From assembly GCA_037893245.1 (NCBI GenBank), contig JBAIAA010000074.1:3844001-3908000 (forward strand): a stretch of DNA of 64,000 nt. Direction: 5' to 3'. The DNA comes from Crossaster papposus (Eukaryota; Echinodermata; Asteroidea; Velatida; Solasteridae). A program made the translations under genes and the position numbers. The notes under the pieces were generated by a model that had not been told where the DNA came from, searched no databases, and saw only the letters and a program-made list of their open reading frames with translations. Shown piece after piece: positions 278 to 64,000 of the stretch (position 1 is the stretch's first letter; every line of letters begins with the position of its first letter).

Positions 278-23710
<23,433 letters not shown>

Positions 23711-25187: not shown

Positions 25188-25400
25188 ATGGCTGTGACTT
25201 ACTATCACTATTGCCCTAATGATAAAAGCAGCCAGAGCCACTTCCAATAAGACACAAGCCAAAGCCAATAATTCACACACAACCATAGCCAAGAAATATG
25301 CACACTGCGTCCTAATTATGGCTATAGCCTGTATTTACACATGACTAGATATGGAAGCAGCTAAGCTATAGCCATAGCCAAGTCATTTAAACACAGCCAT
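25188..25400. mobile_element. Motif-saturated inverted-repeat element (AGCCATAGCC word)
   Basis: ATGGCTGTG at the left pairs with CACAGCCAT at the right. Between them AGCCA, AAGCC and ATAGCC recur many times without a fixed period. Confidence 0.5.
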
Positions 25401-27708: not shown

Positions 27709-27966
27709 TTAACCAGTTCGCGCCGGAGGACGTATATACACGCAAAGTTTTCCCCAGATTCAAAACAGATGACGCATAAACACGTCACGAGCAAGGCCGG
27801 AAATGTCTGTCAGCAGCGAGCAAGCATCAGCAGCGAGCAAGGCTGGAAATGCGTGGGTGTGCTTCCCGGTACCATCGGCCTGAACCCGCTTCGGATCGCG
27901 TTTCGTTAAAAATAATTCCGCGCCACGGCTCGGTGATGTTAAAATAATCTCGGCCAGACTGGTTAA
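27709..27966. mobile_element. TTAACCAGTTCGC-family MITE
   Basis: TTAACCAGTTCGCGCCGGAG to GACTGGTTAA. Intergenic between HSPA4 and UBE2K. Confidence 0.85.
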
Positions 27967-28756: not shown

Positions 28757-31700
28757 CTGCAAACAAATACAAACAGAAAGTGTAATTAGGTTTTTTATTT
28801 GTATTGGTTTCTCTAGGGTTACATCTCATAAAAACTCAAGAAATAGGTGGATTCAGGACAACCCGTGCACAAACAGTACAGTAGAACATCGCAATAATGA
28901 TTACGATTTGGTGCAGACAAGATTGTTTATTATAGCAATTCTCGGCCAGGGTGAGTGAAAAACAAGATGGCAATGCCCATAGAGAAAAGTGCGCCCACTT
29001 TGGGAAGAAAGCTATTTGAAGTATGTCCTTTTTAGTGATAAATTGGACACGTTGGTATAACATAACGATGCATGTTCATGTAGTGCCCTTAACATATTCC
29101 AACAGAATTAGTCAAATTTAAGGGGTTTTCCTGGTTTTCAAATTAAAAAAATTATCCTTCATAATAACTTAGCAAATTGTTACTAGTACCCAGTCAATTT
29201 TGCTTGAAGAATTCAAGAAGTCAGTAAAGCCTGAAATACTTGCAGATGCTCACCTCATTGAAGCCCATCTCTGTTATTCTTTCTACCTTCTCATCAAACT
29301 CTCTACTGCTGCTCTTAGCTCCAGCGTAGGCGCAAGCCCAATGTCTGGCCGTTCTCTGATAGGCATTAGGATTCTCTTTGTACTGTCATCAAAGAGATAA
29401 TAGGCAAAGTACCATGAGAATAACCACATAGTTATGACCTTAGATAGTATGGCAAGTTATAACTGATGGGTTTGTGCCTTCATGATGCAAGTTTACAAGG
29501 GTCGAATTTGGCACATAGTCAGAGTATGTCACGAGAAAGATACTTGGCTATTGGGCCATCGAAGATTTGTCCTTTTAACCCTTTGCACTCAGCCCCGCGC
29601 TACATCTGACTTCGTGTCCCTTAAAAGCTCCTGGGGGTCCAAATATTTCCCAAAATATAGTCCTATTTGTAAGCTTTCCAATGATACATGTACATAATTA
29701 TATGGGATTTGTACACTGTAAATGAAATTTGTATACAAACTAGCAACACCTACAAAATCTTTGAAAACAGGCCTGAGTTTAAAGGGTTAAACAAATATAG
29801 GTAGAATAATAAGCAATGGCAGCCATTTTGAAAATTGCTTGTTATTCTACCTGTATTTCTTTAAAGGACAAATTGTTGATGGCCCTATAACTAAATATCT
29901 TGCTCATGAGATACTCTAACTGTGTGCCAAATGCCATGCTTGTATCATCAAGGGCACAATTCCCCCAAATATCTCCCATATCTGCTTTAAGAACATGGCC
30001 TGTCAGATGAATACATGTAGGTTCTGACTTACTGTCTTCAGATGCAGCCAACAATAAACATCCAATGTTCATAAGAATACAGCAGTTATAATAAGGTGTG
30101 TTTTATCCCCCCCCCCCAACAACAAAATAAACCAAGAAAAAAAACCCCAAAACAACAACCAAACTCCAAAATCAGTTCTATTATATGTATGTCACTTGTG
30201 GGCTTGCTATTACATTTTCAACTTCAAATACCATATTTTATTGGAAATCAACAACCACTTCGTGCTGGATGACGTATATAAACGCAAAGTTTTCCCCAGA
30301 TTCAAAACGGACGACGCATAAACACGTCACGAGCAAGGCCGGAAATGTCAGTCAACAGCGAGCAAGGCCGGAAATGCGTGGGTGTGCTTCCCGGTACCAT
30401 CGGCCTGAACCCGCCTCTGATTGAGTTTCAATAAAAATAATCTCGCGACTCGGCTCGGTGATGTTAAAATAATCCTGGTGCGAACTGGTTGATAAGGTGT
30501 GTTTTATGCCCTCCCCCAAACCCCACCCCCCCCCCAAAAAAAATATATATATATAAAACCAAGAAAACTCCAAATCAGTTCTATTATGTGTATGTCACTT
30601 GTGGGCTTGCTATTAAATGTTCAATTTCAAATACTATATTTTTGGGGAAATCAATATGTGACCCAGCACGAGTAAATGAGACACTTTGCGGCAAAAATAA
30701 AAATTGAGATTTTGATTTCATCATTTAAAGCTTGTTTAGCTTTAAATGATGAAATCAAAATCTCAAATTTTATTTTTGCCTCAAAGTGTCTCATTTACTC
30801 AGGTGGGTCACATATAACTACTGACTTTAACAAGAAAATACCAAAACACACCTTATATACAAGTAGCTGCACTTTAGAATAGGCCTGGGCGAGGAGTGGA
30901 TTATTCGGGTACTCATGAAAAAAACAACTTGCGAGTAGTCAAGAACTCGCTAGTAATTTAGCTGAACAATTTTCCACAATTTACAGAAACATTACAAACA
31001 TACATGTTATTACTGCAAAGATTTAAAAAAATTACAAAATAAAATTTTCATCTAACCCCCTCCCAAAAAAAAAATTAAAAAAATAAAATAATAAAATACC
31101 AAATGGTTCTAAACAAGGTCAACAGCCAACAGCCAGTGCAATTGATGATTTACATACAATCCATTATGCTTGATATAAACAAAACCCCTGCATAGAAGAT
31201 TTATAAACATGCATGACCTTTGTTTGACCCATATAAGTGGGCTTATTTATATGATTGAACTAACTGCCGTTGTACATATGGGTGTAAAGTTGTGCATGGG
31301 CAATGCTGACAATTTGTACATGTACAAGGGAAGTCCGAAATTTAAGCAGGTTTATATTCCAGCGAAGCTTGTGGTCAACGGGTCAAGAAAAAACAACTGT
31401 AATGTTGTGTTTGAAAGTCTGAAACAGATTTTAGTCTTGAATACAATTAATACATGGCAGATTTTAATTTAGTCTGTAATTAGCTCAAACAGCCCGAATC
31501 CTCTCATTTTAATAGGAATTTGAACAAAATCAAAGAAGTTAGGGTTTTAACAGAAAAACTTATTTATTTATTTTGATATTTAAGGTTTGATAAATAACAA
31601 GAATCGACAATTACACTAAAGTCACCATAAAGTACTCATGCAAATTTACATTGAATCTACACATCTACATGTGTGTGTCATACCAGTGGTTAATTAAATA

Positions 31701-35514: not shown

Positions 35515-43825
<8,311 letters not shown>

Positions 43826-45319: not shown

Positions 45320-45332
45320 TATAGTCTTTATC

Positions 45333-45451
45333 TAGACCGAGGTACTTGCCTCTAGTTATCGCTTTTTAACATTTGGGCATTATCTTGCGCTAGCGCAAGA
45401 TAATGCCCAAATGTTAAAAAAGCGATAACTAGAGGCCAGTAACTCGGTCTA
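45333..45451. mobile_element. 119-bp palindrome with 9-bp target duplication
   Basis: Near-perfect palindrome centred on GCGCTAGCGC, starting TAGACCGAG and ending CTCGGTCTA. It is flanked by GTCTTTATC at 45324-45332 and 45452-45460. The same TAG...CTA tips and 9-bp duplication occur at 57556-58735. Confidence 0.85.
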
Positions 45452-45607
45452 GTCTTTATCCATAATTTTGATTTGTTGTATTTAAATGGCAGTGATGAAC
45501 CACACAGAAATCTTGATATTTGCAAAATAGATTTACAGTTTCTACTAATTATGTTATTAATGTTAATCAGTATTTGTGTTTGTTTAATGATGCACAATTT
45601 TGAGCTA

Positions 45608-54664: not shown

Positions 54665-54889
54665 ACCTTTTGTGTAATACACAAAAGAAATAAAATTATT
54701 TTCCACATGTGTAGTAAATAAGTGGAAGGTCAAATAGGCCATTGTACTGTAAACTCCTAGAGTAGCAGGCTAAGCAACTGTGGTCAGTACTTCATAGGTA
54801 CAGTGTACATGTATCATGTAACATACTATGTCAAGCCAAAGCGGAATTAATTCAAAACCGTATTTTTTGGCCAACACCCAAAATTTCAT

Positions 54890-55370
54890 GCAAGACTAAC
54901 TCGTTTTTTCGTGCAAGACCCAATATTTCGTGCAATACCCCCAACAAAATCGTCCAAGACTTAATTTATCGTGCAAGACCAACATTTTCCTGCAAGACCA
55001 AAATTTTCCTGCAAGACCCAATTTTATATGCAAGACCCAATTTTTCCTGCAAGACTCAATTTTTCCTGCAAGACCCAATTTTACATGCAAGACCCAAATT
55101 TTCGCGCAAGACCAAATTTTTCGTGCAAGACTTAATTTTTCGTGCAAGACCAAATTTTACATGTAAGACCAAAATTGTGTGCAACACCAAATTGCACAAC
55201 ATTTTCCGGCAAGACTAAATTTTACATGCAAGACCCAAATTTTTATGCAAGACCCAAATTTTTATGCAAGACCCAATTTTTTGTGCAAGACTCAATTTTT
55301 CGTGCAAGACCAAATTTTACATGCAAGACCAAAATTGTGTGCAACACCAAAATGTTCGCGCAAGATGCAC
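54890..55370. repeat. Degenerate ~20-bp tandem array (TGCAAGACC word)
   Basis: About 24 units of the form TTTTTCGTGCAAGACCCAA with spacing near 19-20 bp. Direct orientation throughout, unlike the hairpin elements. The inverse array is at 63540-63998. Confidence 0.85.
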
Positions 55371-56168
55371 GTGACCTATTGTGTATGGTGGCTCTGAAGG
55401 GACATCGCACATTTCTGCGTAGATTTGTTTCAACAGAACGTGTTTAGCATTCGAATGTCGAATAAGGAGCTTGTAGTTTGTGTTGAACATCAAACGAGGA
55501 AAGCAGCTTCGTACAGTAACGTTCAGATGTTGACCTTTTCCATCCGTTACCACTCAAAATCACTTCATTTCAAATGCAGATTACTACGCAACTATGGACA
55601 AATATTCAAATAAAAATAACCACCAGGTCAATAAATTTCCATTCTTAAATGTTTTCTGTTCTTTTCAACTTTGATTGTATTATTAACTTAACAAATTACA
55701 TAAAACAAATATATTATGAAATTGTTATTATTCAATCTGCACAAACCTTTCAAGAATTTGCAATTTAGATACAAACTTTTGCACAGTATTAGTAGCAATA
55801 GCTATCTCCCCCCCCCCCCCCCACATAACTGAATCTAACTAAATACTCAAGTGTAGGCACCTGTGCTTGAAATCTACAGTTAACAATAAATTTCAAATAA
55901 TGCAAAAATTCAATATTGTATCAAAAACAATAGATTGACATTACATAGTTATGTTTAAACGCACATGAGCATGGCTTTCCCACCAGTTTCCAAATTAAAT
56001 CCATTTATTTTAACTTGTTCACAATCAAACAAAATATGCTTTATTGCCTCGGAAAAATTGGAACAAAAAGCGGGAGAATCATCATTCACAATTTTCATTT
56101 GGAAAAGTCTAATATTCTCCATTAAAGTATTCCTATTAATGTTACTGGAAGGTTTTAGGTAATAAGGT
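54893..56168 (+). repeat. Left arm of a large inverted duplication
   Basis: Matches the reverse complement of 62203-64000, apart from a 545-bp insertion in the right arm and a longer G-run there. Contents in order: the TGCAAGACC array, about 250 bp unique sequence, an AT-rich stretch, a poly-C run (55807-55822) and a LINE fragment. Confidence 0.85.
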
Positions 56169-56179
56169 GACAGTGGCAC
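55955..56179 (-). pseudogene. LINE ORF2 C-terminal fragment
   Basis: Frame reads MENIRLFQMKIVNDDSPAFC then SNFSEAIKHILFDCEQVKI. C..C spacing followed by H-IL-x-C is typical of the C-terminal zinc-like motif of non-LTR retrotransposons. Only the 3' end remains. Confidence 0.5.
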
Positions 56180-57555
56180 TTAGGGAGACTTAGGGAGTAC
56201 AAACAAAGGAAATTTTCGAGAGGAACAAAGGAAACTCCTCGATTTACACCATAAACAAACGTGACTGTGCATGTGTTCTTGTCTTGCATTACGATCGAGG
56301 ATCGAAACACAAAAGAGAACAAAGGGAACAAAGGATCCTCGATCGACGGTTTGCTTGTCCGAATTCTGTCCTCGATCGACGGTGCAAGCGCTAAGCAATG
56401 GGGATTGGGTTAAGTAAAGGAAGAAAGGAAAACACAATATCGATCCTCGGTCGTTATGTGGTTCACGACTGTGTGTGTGTGTGTGCGTTTGTTTTTGATT
56501 GAAATAGGGGACGTATGACAAAGGGAACAATGGGGTCCCCTATTCCGCAAAGGTCCCCGATTCAGACTCGTGTGCAAATCCTATGGCGATCATCCGAAAA
56601 CGTTAGAGTACAAACAAAAGAGGGAAGACGGTCGGACAATGCCCCGTCCCCTATTGACGGCATTTACCCACTTGCGTGTGTGTGCAACGCAGGCTTTTCC
56701 CTAAGAATATTTGGAGGTGCATTATACTATGCATCACCTAAATTATTATCGTTTGTATAATCAAAATTAATTGATAATAAAATATACTTCTCGTATGGTT
56801 ATGTAAAACAAATGTACTGCATTGTCATGTTAACATATCATTTACATTTTTCATAATTGTTTTGATTTGTGTTTAATTTCAGATTAAACCCAGTTCCACA
56901 AGTTAAACATCTGCGTATGAGTGTCTAACGGGTTTAGCAAACCAGATTGCGTTACAGTGTGCATTGATTAGAGGCCTTGAATAATATAATGAAGATAGTT
57001 AGTCATCTCTTTTTTTGCAATGGTAAAATTATTCCCTAAATAGAGGGGTCCAAGATATTTATTTTATGCACCGGAGAGATATTTCTTTCTGCCATCCCGG
57101 TCATTTAGAAGAACATTTTGAAAGAGGGATTTGCGAGAAATCAGTGTTGATTTATGGAGGAAAGAGGTATAATGCGGTTTGTCTAATGAACAAACGTGTT
57201 CCTTTTTTAAATTCTAGAATGTTCAAACCTCCAGTAGTACTGTCAAATTATTTTTGTGAATTTGACATTCATAAAAAGGACTGGAGTACGATTTATTATT
57301 TGACTTTTAGATCTTGTAATAGCGCTGGACGATACGGCGATTTTATCGTGACGATACGATATTCGCAAAAGAAATCGGAATCGCATACATTTTAATACAT
57401 ATCGAAAAGTCGGCATATCGCCGATATCGTTTTTGAAATCGGCTACCTTTTCGTGACTCGCATTTTCCTTTTAAACAATCGGCAATACTTGTGTTTCAGT
57501 TCAAACTTGTATCCACTGGAACCGGCAGTCATTGTGCACAATGCGCCTGCCAAGC
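56180..57555. other. Spacer region, no confident gene
   Basis: Short inverted words (CTCGATCG, AACAAAGGGAACAAAG) around 56200-56530 suggest a small hairpin element. A 109-codon frame at 57066-57395 begins HRRDISFCHPGHLEEHFERG and may be another retrotransposon remnant. Confidence 0.35.
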
Positions 57556-58735
57556 TAGTCTTGGCCAAGACCAAGCTAGCCCGTTCATTTGTTCCGCGGC
57601 GCGCCGTCCGTATTATCTGGGATTATTGAGGGCGCCCTTTATTATCGCCATAATTCCTGGATCTCTTCCACTAGCTTGGTCTAAGCTTGGCGCATCGGTC
57701 ACGTGAACCCGGAAAATTCCGAGGACATTCCAAGCATAGCTCAAATAGCTACTCGCCCCCGCATGCGCACTAAGTCGTTTTTGTTTAATGTGGTGTTCGA
57801 TTATTATAGTCTGGTTCCCAGACCAAATATTTCTGACTATTTGTGATTTTTCATTTATTATTTAGCCGTTAATGTCACGTGACCAACAACTGGAGGAATT
57901 GCTTAACGTTCGCGATGTTCGAGTGTTTCCAGGTTTTTATAAAATAAAACTCACATTAGCAAAGGTCAACACCAGACGAAATGCCTAAGACTATCACAGT
58001 CATTGTAGTCATTGTGCTATTTTTTTGGAAAGAGCCGTTAAAATTTGAATTGTTGCGTCGTCATAGCTACGCTGCTTGTATCGCGTCATTATCTATTTTG
58101 TTGTCGCCGGCTGCTACCTGACCGGACGTGTAAGAAACCACATTTGGCTATACGTCTAAATTGTAGTGTAGGTCAGGTAGCCGCCGGCGACAACAAATAG
58201 ATAATGACGCGATGATACAAGCAGCGTAGCTATGACGACGCAACAATTCAAATTCTAACGGCTCTTTCCAAAAAAATAGCACAATGACTACAATGACTGT
58301 GATAGTCTTAGGCATTTCGTCTGGTGTTGACCTTTGCTAATGTGAGTTTTATTTTATAAAAACCTGGAAACACTCGAACATCGCGAACGTTAAGCAATTC
58401 CTCCAGTTGTTGGTCACGTGACATTAACGGCTAAATAATAAATGAAAAATCACAAATAGTCAGAAATATTTGGTCTGGGAACCAGACTATAATAATCGAA
58501 CACCACATTAAACAAAAACGACTTAGTGCGCATGCGGGGGCGAGTAGCTATTTGAGCTATGCTTGGAATGTCCTCGGAATTTTCCGGGTTCACGTGACCG
58601 ATGCGCCAAGACCAAGCTACTGGAAGAGATCCAGGAATTATGGCGATAATAAAGGGCGCCCTCAATAATCCCAGATAATACGGACGGCGCGCCGCGGAAC
58701 AAATGAACGGGCTAGCTTGGTCTTGGCCAAGACTA
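57556..58735. mobile_element. 1.18-kb giant palindrome with 9-bp target duplication
   Basis: Left arm 57556-58123 and right arm 58171-58735 are near-exact inverses around a 47-bp loop. Tips TAGTCTTGGCCAAGACCAAG and the inverse. Flanks CTGCCAAGC at 57547-57555 and 58736-58744. No coding capacity. A 9-bp duplication fits Mutator-like transposition; the family is inferred. Confidence 0.9.
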
Positions 58736-58744
58736 CTGCCAAGC

Positions 58745-59737
58745 TTGATCAATGATAAACATAGCCGGCCATGTGTAGTGTGGCATGGCATTTACCAACA
58801 CACAACGCGCGCCGCATGGTCCTGACGACTGCGCGTGGCCTGATGACGTATGACCCGGTTACCGGTGTGGTGTGCAATCTGTACTCAATGAACAGACTTG
58901 TTTAAGCGTATCGCGCATGTCTCAGTGTAACCAATACTCGCAAACAAGTGCGAGACTGAGCGCCACAGACCGGATTTAATAGAAGACTAGAATTCGTACA
59001 ACACCGGCCCCTGCAGAGTTCCACGTAGTCTAGTCCTAGACCCTTGTGTTATTTCGGCGCCCACGCGCGCAGATTCGTTAACGCTGTCTCTTTTTCAAAT
59101 CCCGACTTCGTGTGCGTTGGTGTCTCACGCATGCGTAGTTTACATAATGCAGCTGGATCCATATTCGCACTGGAGCCGACGTTTGACAAACGTACATGAT
59201 TTTGGATTCCCCAATGGGTCTAGCACTAGTTGGCAATCAATTGTTAACTTTAACCTTAGTTTTCGACGAATCTCCCTCGCTTTTTCGAGGGATCCAATCA
59301 GCGACCGAGTTTGAGCCTCATCATGAATTATTCATTATACACAAATATAAGATACTGTGTGTGTGTACACAAGACAGTGTACATGTACAACATTGTACAT
59401 GTACAATGTACATGTATGTGATGGTGACTGTATGCACGTGCATTGCGCGAAATGTGCAGACTTTTAATAGCATTGTACATTACATACGTACGTGTGTCCG
59501 ATCTTCCGGGGCATGGCAGTGCAAGCTAGCTACAGCCACCGGTACCGTACCGCGGGTCTGCCCGCTGCAGCATCGCTATGTTATGGTGCTTCAGCGCGGT
59601 GCGTTTTTTTGTATTCCAGTGTATCGAACGTACAGTACGTCAGTATTAGCCTCAAATCTAGTGAGGTCGTGCTTCATTTTGGCAAACAGTTAATTATTAC
59701 CTGCAAAAACTACCTTTCCCTGAAATAAAAGGGGAAA
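58745..59737. other. Spacer region, no gene recognised
   Basis: Moderately CG-rich to 59130, then ATGTAC-type palindromic words at 59380-59480. The 165-codon frame across 59196-59693 has no recognisable domain. Confidence 0.4.
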
Positions 59738-60245
59738 TTTATGGTGGCTCTGCATGGAGGGACATAAAAGTCGTGAATTTGTTTGCGAGTAGTTGTGAAT
59801 TTATTCGCGACTGGTTGTTAATATTTTTGCGACTGTTCGGATATTTTTGCGACTAGTCGTATAATTCGTGATTATTAGTGAATATTTTCGCTACTAGTCG
59901 CGAATTTTTTTCGCGACTATTGAAAATATTGACGACTATTCGCGAAAAAATATTTACGACTAGTCGCAAAAAACAAGTCGTAAAAAATTCAGGACTCAAA
60001 TTTGCGACTTGTCATTAATTTATTTGCGACTGGTCGTAAATATTTTTGCAACTAGTCGCAAATAATTTCACAACTAGTCGCGAAAAAAATTCGCGACTAG
60101 TCGCAAATTTTGTCACGACTAGTTGTGAAATTATTTGCGACTAGTTGCAAAAATATTTACGACCAGTCGCAAATAAATTAACGACAAGTCGCAAATTTGT
60201 CGCGAAAATGTTCACGACTTTTGATATCCCTCAGGGCCACCATAT
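59738..60245. mobile_element. Motif-saturated inverted-repeat element (CGACTAGTCG word)
   Basis: ATGGTGGCTCTGCATGGAGG with AAAAGTCGTGAA at the left; inverse TTCACGACTTTTGATATCCC and GGGCCACCAT at the right. About 500 bp are filled with GCGACTAGTCGCAAA-type words, themselves palindromic. Confidence 0.85.
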
Positions 60246-60253
60246 AAATTAGT

Positions 60254-61009
60254 AGCCCCAGTCCCACTGAAGCCGGATATGCTACGGATCGCCCCGGATC
60301 GCCCCCGGATGAAACTACGTGTTTGATCCGGGGTGGTCCGGGAAGGCAATCAAAAACAAAGTGACATGTTCCCCGATCCTACTACGGTTCTACTACGGTT
60401 TGACTACGGTTCTGCCACGAATGGGCCCGGATCACCCCGGTTCAAGCCTGTTTTTCCCCCATGACCCCGGATGGTCACGGATTCACTACGGTTCCGCCAC
60501 GGTTTCACTACGGATGCGCCACGGTTCATCCCGGATGTGCCACGGTTCACCCCGGATGGCCCCGGATACACTACGGTTCATCCCGGTTCATCCGGGAAAT
60601 ACCGTGGTGACACCGTAGTGAATCCGTAGTGGAACCGTAGTGGAACCAACTCCCGTTTCATCCCGGATAAACACGGTTACACTACGGTTACGCTACGGTT
60701 TATCCCGGATACACTAGGGATCATCACGATCGCACTACGGTTTCACTACGGTTCTTCGCCGCCCCCCTCTCCCTTCCCGGATGGCCCCGGATCACTCCGG
60801 ATGCTAGATGCTGATCCAGGGTGACGCTCGACTTCCCGGACTCACTACGGATGTCCCCGGATGGTCCCGGATGCATGGCCCCGGATAGTCCCGGATAGTC
60901 CCGGATTATCACGGTTTGACTATGGTTCCACTCCGGATGACCCCGGATATGAACCGTAGTGCATCCGGGTTGATCCGTAGCGTATCCGGCTTTCGGTGGG
61001 ACTGGGGCT
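60254..61009. mobile_element. Motif-saturated inverted-repeat element (CCCCGGAT / CTACGGTT words)
   Basis: Tips AGCCCCAGTCCCAC and its inverse, then subterminal CCGGATATGCTACGGATC paired with GATCCGTAGCGTATCCGG. The interior alternates CCCCGGAT and CACTACGGTT words for about 700 bp. It starts 8 bp after the previous element. Confidence 0.85.
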
Positions 61010-61299
61010 TTGGAGGTTTTCACCATAGAGCAAAGTTGTTTCAATCAACAAATTCACCCGCAGTCACAAAAAAACGCCGGGGCAGCTATGATTTGCTGTG
61101 TCAATGTACATGTAAAGTACATGTACATGTACATATGTACATGTACTGTATGGTGCGAAATACGGTACCTCTGGAGACTTGAACACAATGGGGACAATGG
61201 GAGTAAAAAGGTCTCCAAAGGGTGATTTATATTTAGGTCTCCATTAGGAATTTCACGAATTAGATTTTTGGATTGTACTTAAATTACTCAAAAGCTAGG

Positions 61300-61350
61300 G
61301 TTAGGATGTGGGTTAGGGTTAGTGTTTGGGTTAGGGTATAATATAGGGTA
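61300..61350. repeat. GGGTTAGGGTTA-like short repeats
   Basis: A few degenerate TTAGGG-like words. Too short and imperfect to be telomeric; they may mark an end of a CCCTAACC-family element. Confidence 0.4.
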
Positions 61351-61985
61351 TATTGGTTGGAAATTTCAACCCGGGAAAATAATTGTGGTTAAAATGGGAG
61401 CATTTTGAAAAAAGTGCTCGACTTTCTAACCATTTTGTACACGAGAACATGTCATGTTCGGTAAGGGAAGCCATGTCTCCGTCCACAGTGATACAAAAAT
61501 GCGAATACATGTACAGTATAGTACATGCACATCACGGCCGGGTCAATCGCGGCGTGTAACGTTTTGCGTAACCCTCGCACGAATTTGCCTATAACCGTCC
61601 ATCATTATCACGTGATATGAATAATGCATATATTACAATAGTCTGACCACGCCCCCTGTGTGCCAACTTGTCCAAGACCTTCGAGAGAGTCCACTGAGTT
61701 CGCGGGTGCGATTCGTCTGTAGATAGCGCCCTCTATAACATCGGTGGTTTGTGTCAGTGATCGCGCCGGAATAAACAACACGAAGGTCTTGGAACCAAGA
61801 CTAAGTTCCACGCTGATTGGCCGAGAACGTTATGTATTATGTATATGCAGCACATCAACCTCGTTACCATGGCAACGATTATGCCTTGCGCGATCTATAG
61901 CCCCTTTCACACTAGACGATTTCCCCGGCAATTCCCCGGGAAATTATGCATCCTTAATCTTTTGCCGATTTTATCGCCATATCGC

Positions 61986-61988
61986 GGG

Positions 61989-62019
<31 letters not shown>
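61986..62019. repeat. Poly-G tract
   Basis: About 34 nt, almost all G. Flanking sequence (CTTGCGCGATCTATAGCCCC, CACACTAGACGATTTCC) shows no gene. Confidence 0.85.
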
Positions 62020-62202
62020 TATACGTACGCCGCAAGGTGTTTGATGGACGATCATGGCGATACTTACAGAAAGCTGCTTTGGGGGTGTTCGAAAGCTGTT
62101 TGAGCGTACCTTTGGCGACATTTTTTCATGCCTTATTTTTTTGCCGATATCGACTACGAAAAATATAAATATCGCCAGCCCTATCTTGTAAGGAGGTTAA
62201 AA

Positions 62203-64000
62203 CATAAATCTTCCAGTATAAAATTAATAGGAATTCTTTAACCCTATAACTCCCTACCCCATTTTTCTTGCACATAACCTAAATCATGCAAAATCCTGCA
62301 AATCCAAAGTGTTAAAACTCTATGTAACCTCAAGCCTGCAAAATCTTGCAGTGGGTTTACTATTGAGCTATAAGCACCCAAACAGGAAACAAACGCTGCT
62401 AAGTGTAGTATTACAACAATGGTATGCACACGTGACTCTTGGTATGCTAACGTTTCCTGTCCTTGTCACATTGCACATTGACTGAAGCTCCATGGAAAAT
62501 GTACATAGAGCATGAGCAGTGTGAAAGTACGAAGTAACAAATAACCTAAATCCCCCAAAATCCTCATTTAGATAAATACCAAAGTAACCCAAATCCTGCA
62601 AAATCATTAGTTTAGGCCTTATGACCTGGATCCTACCCTCCGTCCAGTCACAAAAACTCCAAACGCACCAATATTGCAAAGTCCCCCGATTCATCAACTA
62701 CAGTTCCAAGTCCCTCAATGATCCTGCAAACTCCTGCATTTTGCAAAGAGAATTTTGGAGGATTTGGGATGGTTAGGGTTAATGACGAATGTTAGACTTT
62801 TCCAAATGAAAATTGTGAATGATGATTCTACCTCTTTTTGCTCAAATTTTTCCGAGGCAATGAAGCATATTTTGTTTGATTGTGAACAAGTTCAAATAAA
62901 TGGATTTAATTTGGAAACTGGTGGGAAAGCCATGCTCATGTGCGTTTAAACATAATTATGTAATGTCAATCTATTGTTTTTGATACAATATTGAATTTTT
63001 GCATTATTTGAAATTTATTGTTAACTGTAGATTTCAAGCACAGGTGCCTACACTTGAGTATTTAGTTAGATTCAGTTATGTGGGGGGGGGGGGGGGGGGG
63101 GGGGGAGATAGCTATTGCTACTAATATTGTGCAAAAGTTTGTATCTAAATTGCAAATTCTTGAAAGGTTTGTGCAGATTGAATAATAACAATTTTATAAT
63201 ATATTTGTTTTATGTAATTTGTTAAGTTAATAATACAATCAAAGTTGAAAAGAACAGAAAACATTTAAGAATGGAAATTTATTTACCTGGTGGTTATTTT
63301 TATTTGAATATTTGTCCATAGTTGCGTAGTAATCTGCATTTGAAATGAAGTGATTTTGAGTGGTAACGGATGGAAAAGGTCAACATCTGAACGTTACTGT
63401 ACGAAGCTGCTTTCCTCGTTTGATGTTCAACACAAACTACAAGCTCCTTATTCGACATTCGAATGCTAAACACGTTCTGTTGAAACAAATCTACGCAGAA
63501 ATGTGCGATGTCCCTTCAGAGCCACCATACACAATAGGTCACGTGCATCTTGCGCGAACATTTTGGTGTTGCACACAATTTTGGTCTTGCATGTAAAATT
63601 TGGTCTTGCACGAAAAATTGAGTCTTGCACAAAAAATTGGGTCTTGCATAAAAATTTGGGTCTTGCATGTAAAATTTAGTCTTGCCGGAAAATGTTGTGC
63701 AATTTGGTGTTGCACACAATTTTGGTCTTACATGTAAAATTTGGTCTTGCACGAAAAATTGAGTCTTGCACGAAAAATGTGGTCTTGCGCGAAAATTTGG
63801 GTCTTGCATGTAAAATTGGGTCTTGCAGGAAAAATTGAGTCTTGCAGGAAAAATTGGGTCTTGCATATAAAATTGGGTCTTGCAGGAAAATTTTTGTCTT
63901 GCAGGAAAATGTTGGTCTTGCACGATAAATTAAGTCTTGGACGATTTTGTTGGGGGTATTGCACGAAATATTGGGTCTTGCACGAAAAAACGAGTTAGTC
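62203..64000 (-). repeat. Right arm of the large inverted duplication, running off the window
   Basis: Reverse complement of 54893-56168 plus a MITE insertion at 62238-62782. The LINE fragment (62785-62949), a 25-nt G-run (63081-63105) and the TGCAAGACC array (63540-63998) follow in mirrored order. The outer edge lies beyond 64000. Confidence 0.85.
62238..62782. mobile_element. CCCTAACC-family (TTAA) element inserted in the LINE fragment
   Basis: Starts TTAACCCTATAACTCC and ends GGTTAGGGTTAA. The interior is filled with AATCCTGCAAAATC words. The corresponding uninterrupted site, with a single TTAA, is at 56122-56125 on the other arm, so the insertion duplicated TTAA exactly. Confidence 0.85.

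Follow-up and report, generated by a model that had tools for sequence, protein, structure and literature searches.

Candidate foldback/MITE-like relics with amplified subterminal words in a 64,000-nucleotide window of DNA

How do two neighboring stretches of DNA, each bounded by its own inverted repeat, come to be filled with short recurring words, one word type in the first and another in the second? This question is raised by two elements in the 64,000-nucleotide stretch of DNA analyzed here (hereafter, the window). The first-pass annotation had described them as adjacent inverted-repeat elements separated by 8 bp; each indeed carries its own inverted tips and a crowded interior, and with the present borders the gap between them becomes 9 bp. 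The left element (E1, 59740-60244, no strand assigned) has inverted tips of the form TATGGTGGCYCTG..AGGGA and an interior built mostly of 22-bp units around the self-complementary CGACTAGTCG. Its neighbor (E2, 60254-61009, no strand assigned) has inverted tips AGCCCCAGTCCCAC and 48 words with a CGGWT core, of which 40 lie on the plus and 8 on the minus strand. A third element (E3, 41836-42242, no strand assigned) has tips GGTGGTCACATCTTACGGT and words of the form (A/C)CGTAGTTGA, which run in plus orientation to about 42115 and in minus orientation from 42124. Matching terminal inverted repeats, as expected of foldback or MITE elements, thus bound all three. The tips of E3 are identical on both sides over 19 bases, and those of E2 over the first 14 bases, with a 47-column arm match at 89%, while in alignment the tips of E1 match more poorly than those of E2 and E3, sharing a 9-base TATGGTGGC followed by one substitution and a short indel.

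Comparison with 300 dinucleotide shuffles of each element showed how densely the words are packed. Counted on either strand, recurring 10-mers occupied 223 positions in E1 (shuffle mean 2.7, maximum 14), 211 in E2 (mean 3.6, maximum 22) and 105 in E3 (mean 1.6, maximum 12). The single-strand folds were likewise strong, with z-values of -28 for E1, -9.0 for E2 and -9.7 for E3, and none of the 100, 20 and 100 dinucleotide shuffles, respectively, folded equally well. A similar architecture had also been reported at two other places in the window. At 41836-42242, the position of E3, the tips, the crowding and the fold all bear this out, whereas 25188-25400 (E4) is marginal. The inverted tips of E4 span only 9 bp, its recurring 6-, 8- and 10-mers (62, 23 and 10) are barely above the largest values among 300 shuffles (61, 18 and 6), and its commonest words of these lengths (5, 3 and 2 copies) do not exceed the shuffle maxima of 5, 3 and 2. 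Its fold reached a z-value of -1.8, with 8 of 200 shuffles equally good. Given these short tips and the marginal word counts and fold, E4 was set aside as a solid fourth example.

The words had further been described as mirrored in the two arms, which holds for E3 alone. There, 15 plus words, spaced like the others mostly at 10 bp, give way to 9 minus words at one switch near 42118. E2 departs from this pattern, as its CGGWT words divide into 21 plus and 3 minus in the left half and 19 plus and 5 minus in the right half. Three of its minus words form an island at 60590-60637, four belong to the right terminal repeat, and one lies at 60326; the island takes part in an internal inverted pair (60479-60647, no strand assigned), in which the plus words of 60479-60537 and the minus island of 60589-60647 are 80% complementary. 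For E1, the description is meaningless: CGACTAGTCG is its own reverse complement, leaving the word without orientation, and E1 was dropped as evidence on this point. All 12 matches to CGACTAGTCG with at most one mismatch fall within 59850-60191, mostly at a spacing of 22 bp. Direct repeats inside inverted arms, the arrangement expected of foldback elements, were found in E3 and E1; E2 has words in each of its terminal repeats and a mostly one-sided interior.

The clearest sign of inverted copying comes from an internal palindrome of E1 (59997-60199, no strand assigned), which corresponds to the right arm minus its tip. Its arms, 59997-60091 and 60105-60199, are separated by a 13-bp spacer and identical in inverted orientation at 91 of 95 positions, including an exact run of 66 bp; when its 22-bp blocks were reassembled into 300 arrays with order and strand randomized, the longest such run was 39. 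All eight non-central words of this right arm pair best with their own mirror word, above any direct partner, and here, unlike in E3, mirror positions were more alike than neighboring words, as template switching would leave them. An early register test of E1 had scored mirrored blocks that spanned the spacer, some down to 0.545, and the later word-pair and exact-run tests avoid the spacer. A single inverted-copying event inside the right arm of E1 is well supported. Since the identity of the palindrome exceeds that of the tips, the palindrome is probably younger than the element itself. Template switching, gene conversion and a single inverted duplication may each account for the copy. According to the extracts available of a study in yeast, template switching homogenizes the arms of inverted repeats and inverts their spacers (PMC8604942). 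Template switching or quasipalindrome correction of this kind, which makes arms identical and can invert a spacer, might thus explain both the E1 right arm and the minus island of E2, although the arms documented in those extracts for yeast genes measure about 7-16 bp, compared with about 95 bp in the E1 word array.

Did such copying also carry words from one arm to the other? The first-pass annotation had held that sequence was spread between arms rather than by tandem slippage; a hairpin of the whole element would let one arm template the other and place each new word at its mirror position. The 66-bp mirrored run and the strong fold-back potential of E1, E2 and E3 are in keeping with this scheme, and template switching between arms has precedent in the excerpted yeast work (PMC8604942). 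However, the run lies within a single arm. Because the whole arms of E1 match less well, with a longest exact cross-arm run of 27, the best-matched, homogenized inverted pair is placed inside the right arm and not between the arms. Furthermore, the whole arms agree about equally well in inverted (184/244 columns) and in the same orientation (148/198 columns), and the words of E2 are not mirrored at all. E3 provides evidence on both sides. Its tips are identical though no target duplication was seen, as if they had been kept alike by conversion, and its arms, which match at 88 of 120 columns when aligned from the tips inward, share a coarse order, with GAAC-type words close to the tips and GACC-type words deeper. 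Yet the word pairs of mirrored rank (first 7/15 on the left versus 9 on the right) reached a likeness of 0.738, compared with 0.730 for random pairs, and 48% of random pairings did as well; because mirrored pairs equal random ones, E3 appears to bear no trace of register-specific copying.

A direct example of arms that grew separately was found in a comparison element (P2, 26721-27025, no strand assigned). P2 has the terminal repeat TACACTRAACAAAAATATAAAYGCCC and an 18-bp subterminal unit, of which the left arm holds two copies and the right arm four; the right-arm copies are 100% alike. Given the unequal counts and the identity of the right copies, the expansion was recent and confined to one arm, consistent with very recent slippage there. 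As the unit is part of the terminal repeat, it would be mirrored by descent, after which each arm can expand alone; the 2 versus 4 copies indicate that arms can do so independently. P2 resembles E1-E3 in that its word lies within the terminal repeat and has been multiplied, and differs from them in that the copies are few and near-identical and the word is missing from its middle, whereas E1-E3 are filled with diverged words. Altogether, we consider spreading between arms an unlikely origin of these arrays: what remains of the proposal is one inverted copy within the right arm of E1, and as a general cause it is contradicted by E2, E3 and P2.

Our preferred reading, which we hold to be reasonably probable, is that E1-E3 are non-coding, non-autonomous foldback/MITE-like DNA-transposon relics whose subterminal motifs were amplified, with an inverted duplication or template switch added in E1. 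Such an element would have started short, and its terminal inverted repeats would have contained a subterminal motif at which a transposase probably bound; as part of these repeats, the motif would have been present in both arms, mirrored, from the start. Slippage or unequal exchange could then have multiplied it in each arm separately, for which P2 offers the one direct example, and separate growth would give either roughly symmetric arrays, such as that of E3, or lopsided ones, such as that of E2. E1 would then have undergone another step, an inverted duplication or a template switch, that placed about 95 bp onto their mirror in the right arm, and the minus island of E2 fits an inverted-copy event of the same kind. 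With a spacing close to one or two helical turns, the words would, in addition, line up as sites along a single face of the DNA. In support of this reading, tips and word arrays occur together, and the inner tip repeat already holds the word in the tip alignments of E1 (AAAAGTCGTGAA) and E2 (CCGGATAYGCTACGGATC); in E3, it holds TTACGGT, which resembles a word and runs against the orientation of the rest of the words in its arm. The expansion in P2, the lopsidedness of E2 and the random-like word pairs of E3 also speak for it. The word spacing, the absence of a Pfam family from the open reading frames, and the literature on Galileo, Herves and template switching, as far as its extracts go, count in its favor as well.

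The coding content agrees with elements that lack a transposase of their own. Among the 21 stop-to-stop open reading frames of at least 85 aa listed for 54800-64000, none matched Pfam at the curated cut-off; none of this length overlaps E1, and the three that overlap E2 (97-106 aa) have no Pfam match. Only one open reading frame of at least 60 aa lies wholly inside E3, with 82 aa. Five sub-threshold Pfam matches, namely PF02771 (E 0.0074), PF19001 (0.083), PF17830 (0.0091), PF00084 (0.025) and PF07051 (0.055), were attributed to chance. Evidence of mobility is where the preferred reading meets its main counter-evidence, in that E1-E3 have no convincing target-site duplication, and neither a transposase nor another complete copy bounded by both tips was found in the window. 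Within the offsets tried, E2 and E3 show no target-site duplication of at least 4 bp, and E1 is flanked only by a possible plus-strand AAATT pair (left, 59735-59739; right, 60246-60250), which is weak given the free choice of offsets and the AT-rich flanks.

The missing target duplications of E2 and E3 would suit ordinary minisatellites that grew in place and are not mobile, their inverted ends having arisen by local inverted duplication. TRF reports tandem arrays in all three elements (periods 10-11, 21-24, 44 and 89), and an inverted duplication without tips is present inside E1. However, the TRF units match at only 62-92% over 17 rows, which makes them poor tandem arrays, and instead of head-to-tail units devoid of conserved tips we found interiors that are partly tandem and, outside the words, well-matched tips in each of E1, E2 and E3. 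The tip of E1 occurs again, moreover, on the plus strand at 55384-55402 (TATGGTGGCTCTGAAGGGA), at a distance of 4.4 kb and with no E1 word behind it, and on the minus strand at 63511-63529, inside the same large inverted duplication (96%); counted independently, the tip is present at one more place in the window. As exact pairs, the tips of E2 and E3 occur in the window only at their own element. A purely local, minisatellite origin is therefore one that we doubt.

The recurrence of the E1 tip also bears on the idea that each element has its own private word. The crowded words are distinct from element to element, yet ACTACGG is common to E2 and E3, and the E1 tip recurs without the E1 word, so that strict privacy does not hold. 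ACTACGG is present 14 times in E2 and 7 times in E3, with a single copy in the remainder of the window. Sharing as extensive as that between the words of E2 and E3 was seen for 0.6%, 3.5% or 7.3% of words with shuffled letters, the figure varying with the choice of consensus. The two elements share 12 8-mers, above the mean of 134 tiles (4.9) and below their maximum (15), and their shared 8-, 9- and 10-mer counts were reached by 11, 3 and 4, respectively, of 532 overlapping tiles elsewhere. These controls point in both directions, and the match between the words of E2 and E3 is suggestive at most. A common word core behind different tips in E2 and E3, and a tip without its word in the case of E1, run against the preferred reading, being unlike what one transposase reading both tip and word would leave, with one case of each. 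They might instead indicate a modular make-up in which tips and word arrays are independent of each other: a shared recognition core, ACTACGG/CGGWT, phased with the helix, would sit within unrelated tips, and words would be changed by hairpin-templated synthesis while the ends are kept, forming a self-renewing array. If one tip can carry different words, elements would change words while retaining their ends, which would be unlike known foldback elements. We regard this modular scheme as improbable.

The shared core and the spacing of the E2 words lead to a further possibility, namely that the arrays would be binding sites for a host protein (e.g. an architectural or zinc-finger factor) that were carried by transposon tips or built beside them, their helical phasing having been under selection. 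E2 combines two word types in irregular order, the 10-bp YCCCGGAT and the 11-bp CTACGGTT, and adjacent plus-strand words with the CGGWT core lie on average 10.43 bp apart (30 pairs). Each type keeps its own length: words with CTA or CCA before CGG lie 11 bp from the preceding word in 12 of 12 cases, and the remaining words 10 bp in 17 of 18. At a period of 10.3, the phase coherence of E2 is 0.75, compared with 0.45 at the 99th percentile of random positions, a null that is lenient for a repeat array. Such regularity, together with the presence of ACTACGG in E2 and E3 despite their different tips, is what selected protein sites could produce; fixed-length word types are, however, equally expected from two mixed repeat units. 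The larger gaps between E2 words (79, 80 and 14) fall off the helical phase and miss whole turns, the unit of the neighboring array at 54905-55365 is 19 bp long, and the word match between E2 and E3, equaled by 0.6% to 7% of shuffled words, is suggestive only. Selection by a host protein thus seems to us a rather remote explanation for the arrays.

Among known mobile elements, hAT elements carry 8-bp target duplications and hAT-type tips, neither of which was found in E1-E3. They nevertheless resemble E1-E3 in having short transposase-bound motifs near both ends; in the extracts of a study on the hAT element Herves, a short subterminal motif suffices for transposase binding (PMC3143072). Tol2 and Ac may be likened to these as hAT elements with subterminal motif repeats, as judged from reference titles in the same source (PMC3143072). 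Galileo, a Drosophila element of the P superfamily, is described in the accessible portions of its literature as having long terminal repeats that are repetitive inside and hold several THAP sites for the transposase (PMC3688188) and a tandem copy number that differs from one terminal repeat to the other within a single copy, termed 'independent TIR dynamism' (PMC3573991); in D. willistoni, its copy numbers are likewise unequal at the two ends (PMC4168063). In Tetris of D. virilis, according to similarly partial text, tandem repeats lie within the termini, and the tip portion is common to DAIBAM while the interiors differ (PMC4079207). As far as these extracts describe them, Galileo and Tetris share with the present elements inverted termini with direct repeats in their inner part and the existence of non-autonomous copies. 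Galileo adds the unequal copy number at its two ends and repeats that hold further transposase sites, and Tetris and DAIBAM add a common tip portion in elements with different interiors. Galileo is the best parallel. Differences are apparent as well: E1-E3 measure only 0.4-0.8 kb, they have units of 10-22 bp, most of the E2 words point the same way, and neither a transposase nor a convincing target duplication was found for any of them. In the same extracts, terminal-repeat arrays with a stated unit length have units of about 140-220 bp, and the 10-22 bp found here count against the preferred reading.

The architecture therefore has named relatives in foldback elements, Galileo and Tetris, although the first-pass annotation knew of no named family with this property. 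As seen, the elements are ordinary in kind, plus one neat inverted duplication in E1 and an unusual two-word array. If copies exist genome-wide, the growth of subterminal repeats in non-autonomous transposons would become observable, slippage within arms could be separated from copying across a hairpin, and transposon ends would be linked to the birth of minisatellites. Six tip or word strings were also searched in full-text literature, where two matched, in three papers judged unrelated from their titles and the beginnings of their abstracts.

E3 ends 117 bp ahead of a PRPS1-like exon and, by position, lies in its intron. When translated, 42359-42478 gives a match to human-type ribose-phosphate pyrophosphokinase 1 (E 8e-17), for which reason the window was taken as animal DNA. 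As expected for animal DNA, exact scans of the E1, E2 and E3 tips in viral contigs returned zero stretches each, and an exact scan of the E1 tip in prokaryote genomes also returned zero.

Several other inverted and repeated structures were observed in the window. The segments 54894-56125 and 62779-64000 form inverted arms that are 96% identical over at least 1.2 kb and enclose E1, E2 and a palindrome at 57556-58735; their outer end lies beyond the window, and each arm contains a 19-bp-unit array (TTTTTCGTGCAAGACCCAA) adjoining an E1-type tip. The tip pair at 55384 and 63529 was rejected as the ends of one 8.1-kb element, as the two inverted copies continue to match beyond the tips, in the flanking 19-bp arrays and up to the window end; we take it for part of an inverted duplication whose outer end is out of view, though it may also stem from a haplotype assembly join. 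The enclosed palindrome is near-perfect (1180 bp, 95%), and the 9-bp sequence CTGCCAAGC stands on both sides of it as an exact direct repeat, an arrangement expected of a Mutator-like foldback element (superfamily by target length). Two 1.2-kb copies in opposite orientation, 21151-22346 and 36092-37303, are 87% identical, and each has inverted ends of 54-56 bp. At least five copies of a dispersed repeat of about 210-260 bp were seen, with both orientations represented (2279-2516, 15388-15631, 27709-27966, 30253-30490 and 43338-43545). Near the first of these, Rfam matches a tRNA at 2581-2653 (31.6 bits), and ARAGORN, run with the bacterial code, called no tRNA genes. Further short palindromes, 82-95% self-complementary, were seen at four places (14443-14839, 2855-3018, 30654-30815 and 45332-45452), and foldback structures are therefore common in the window.
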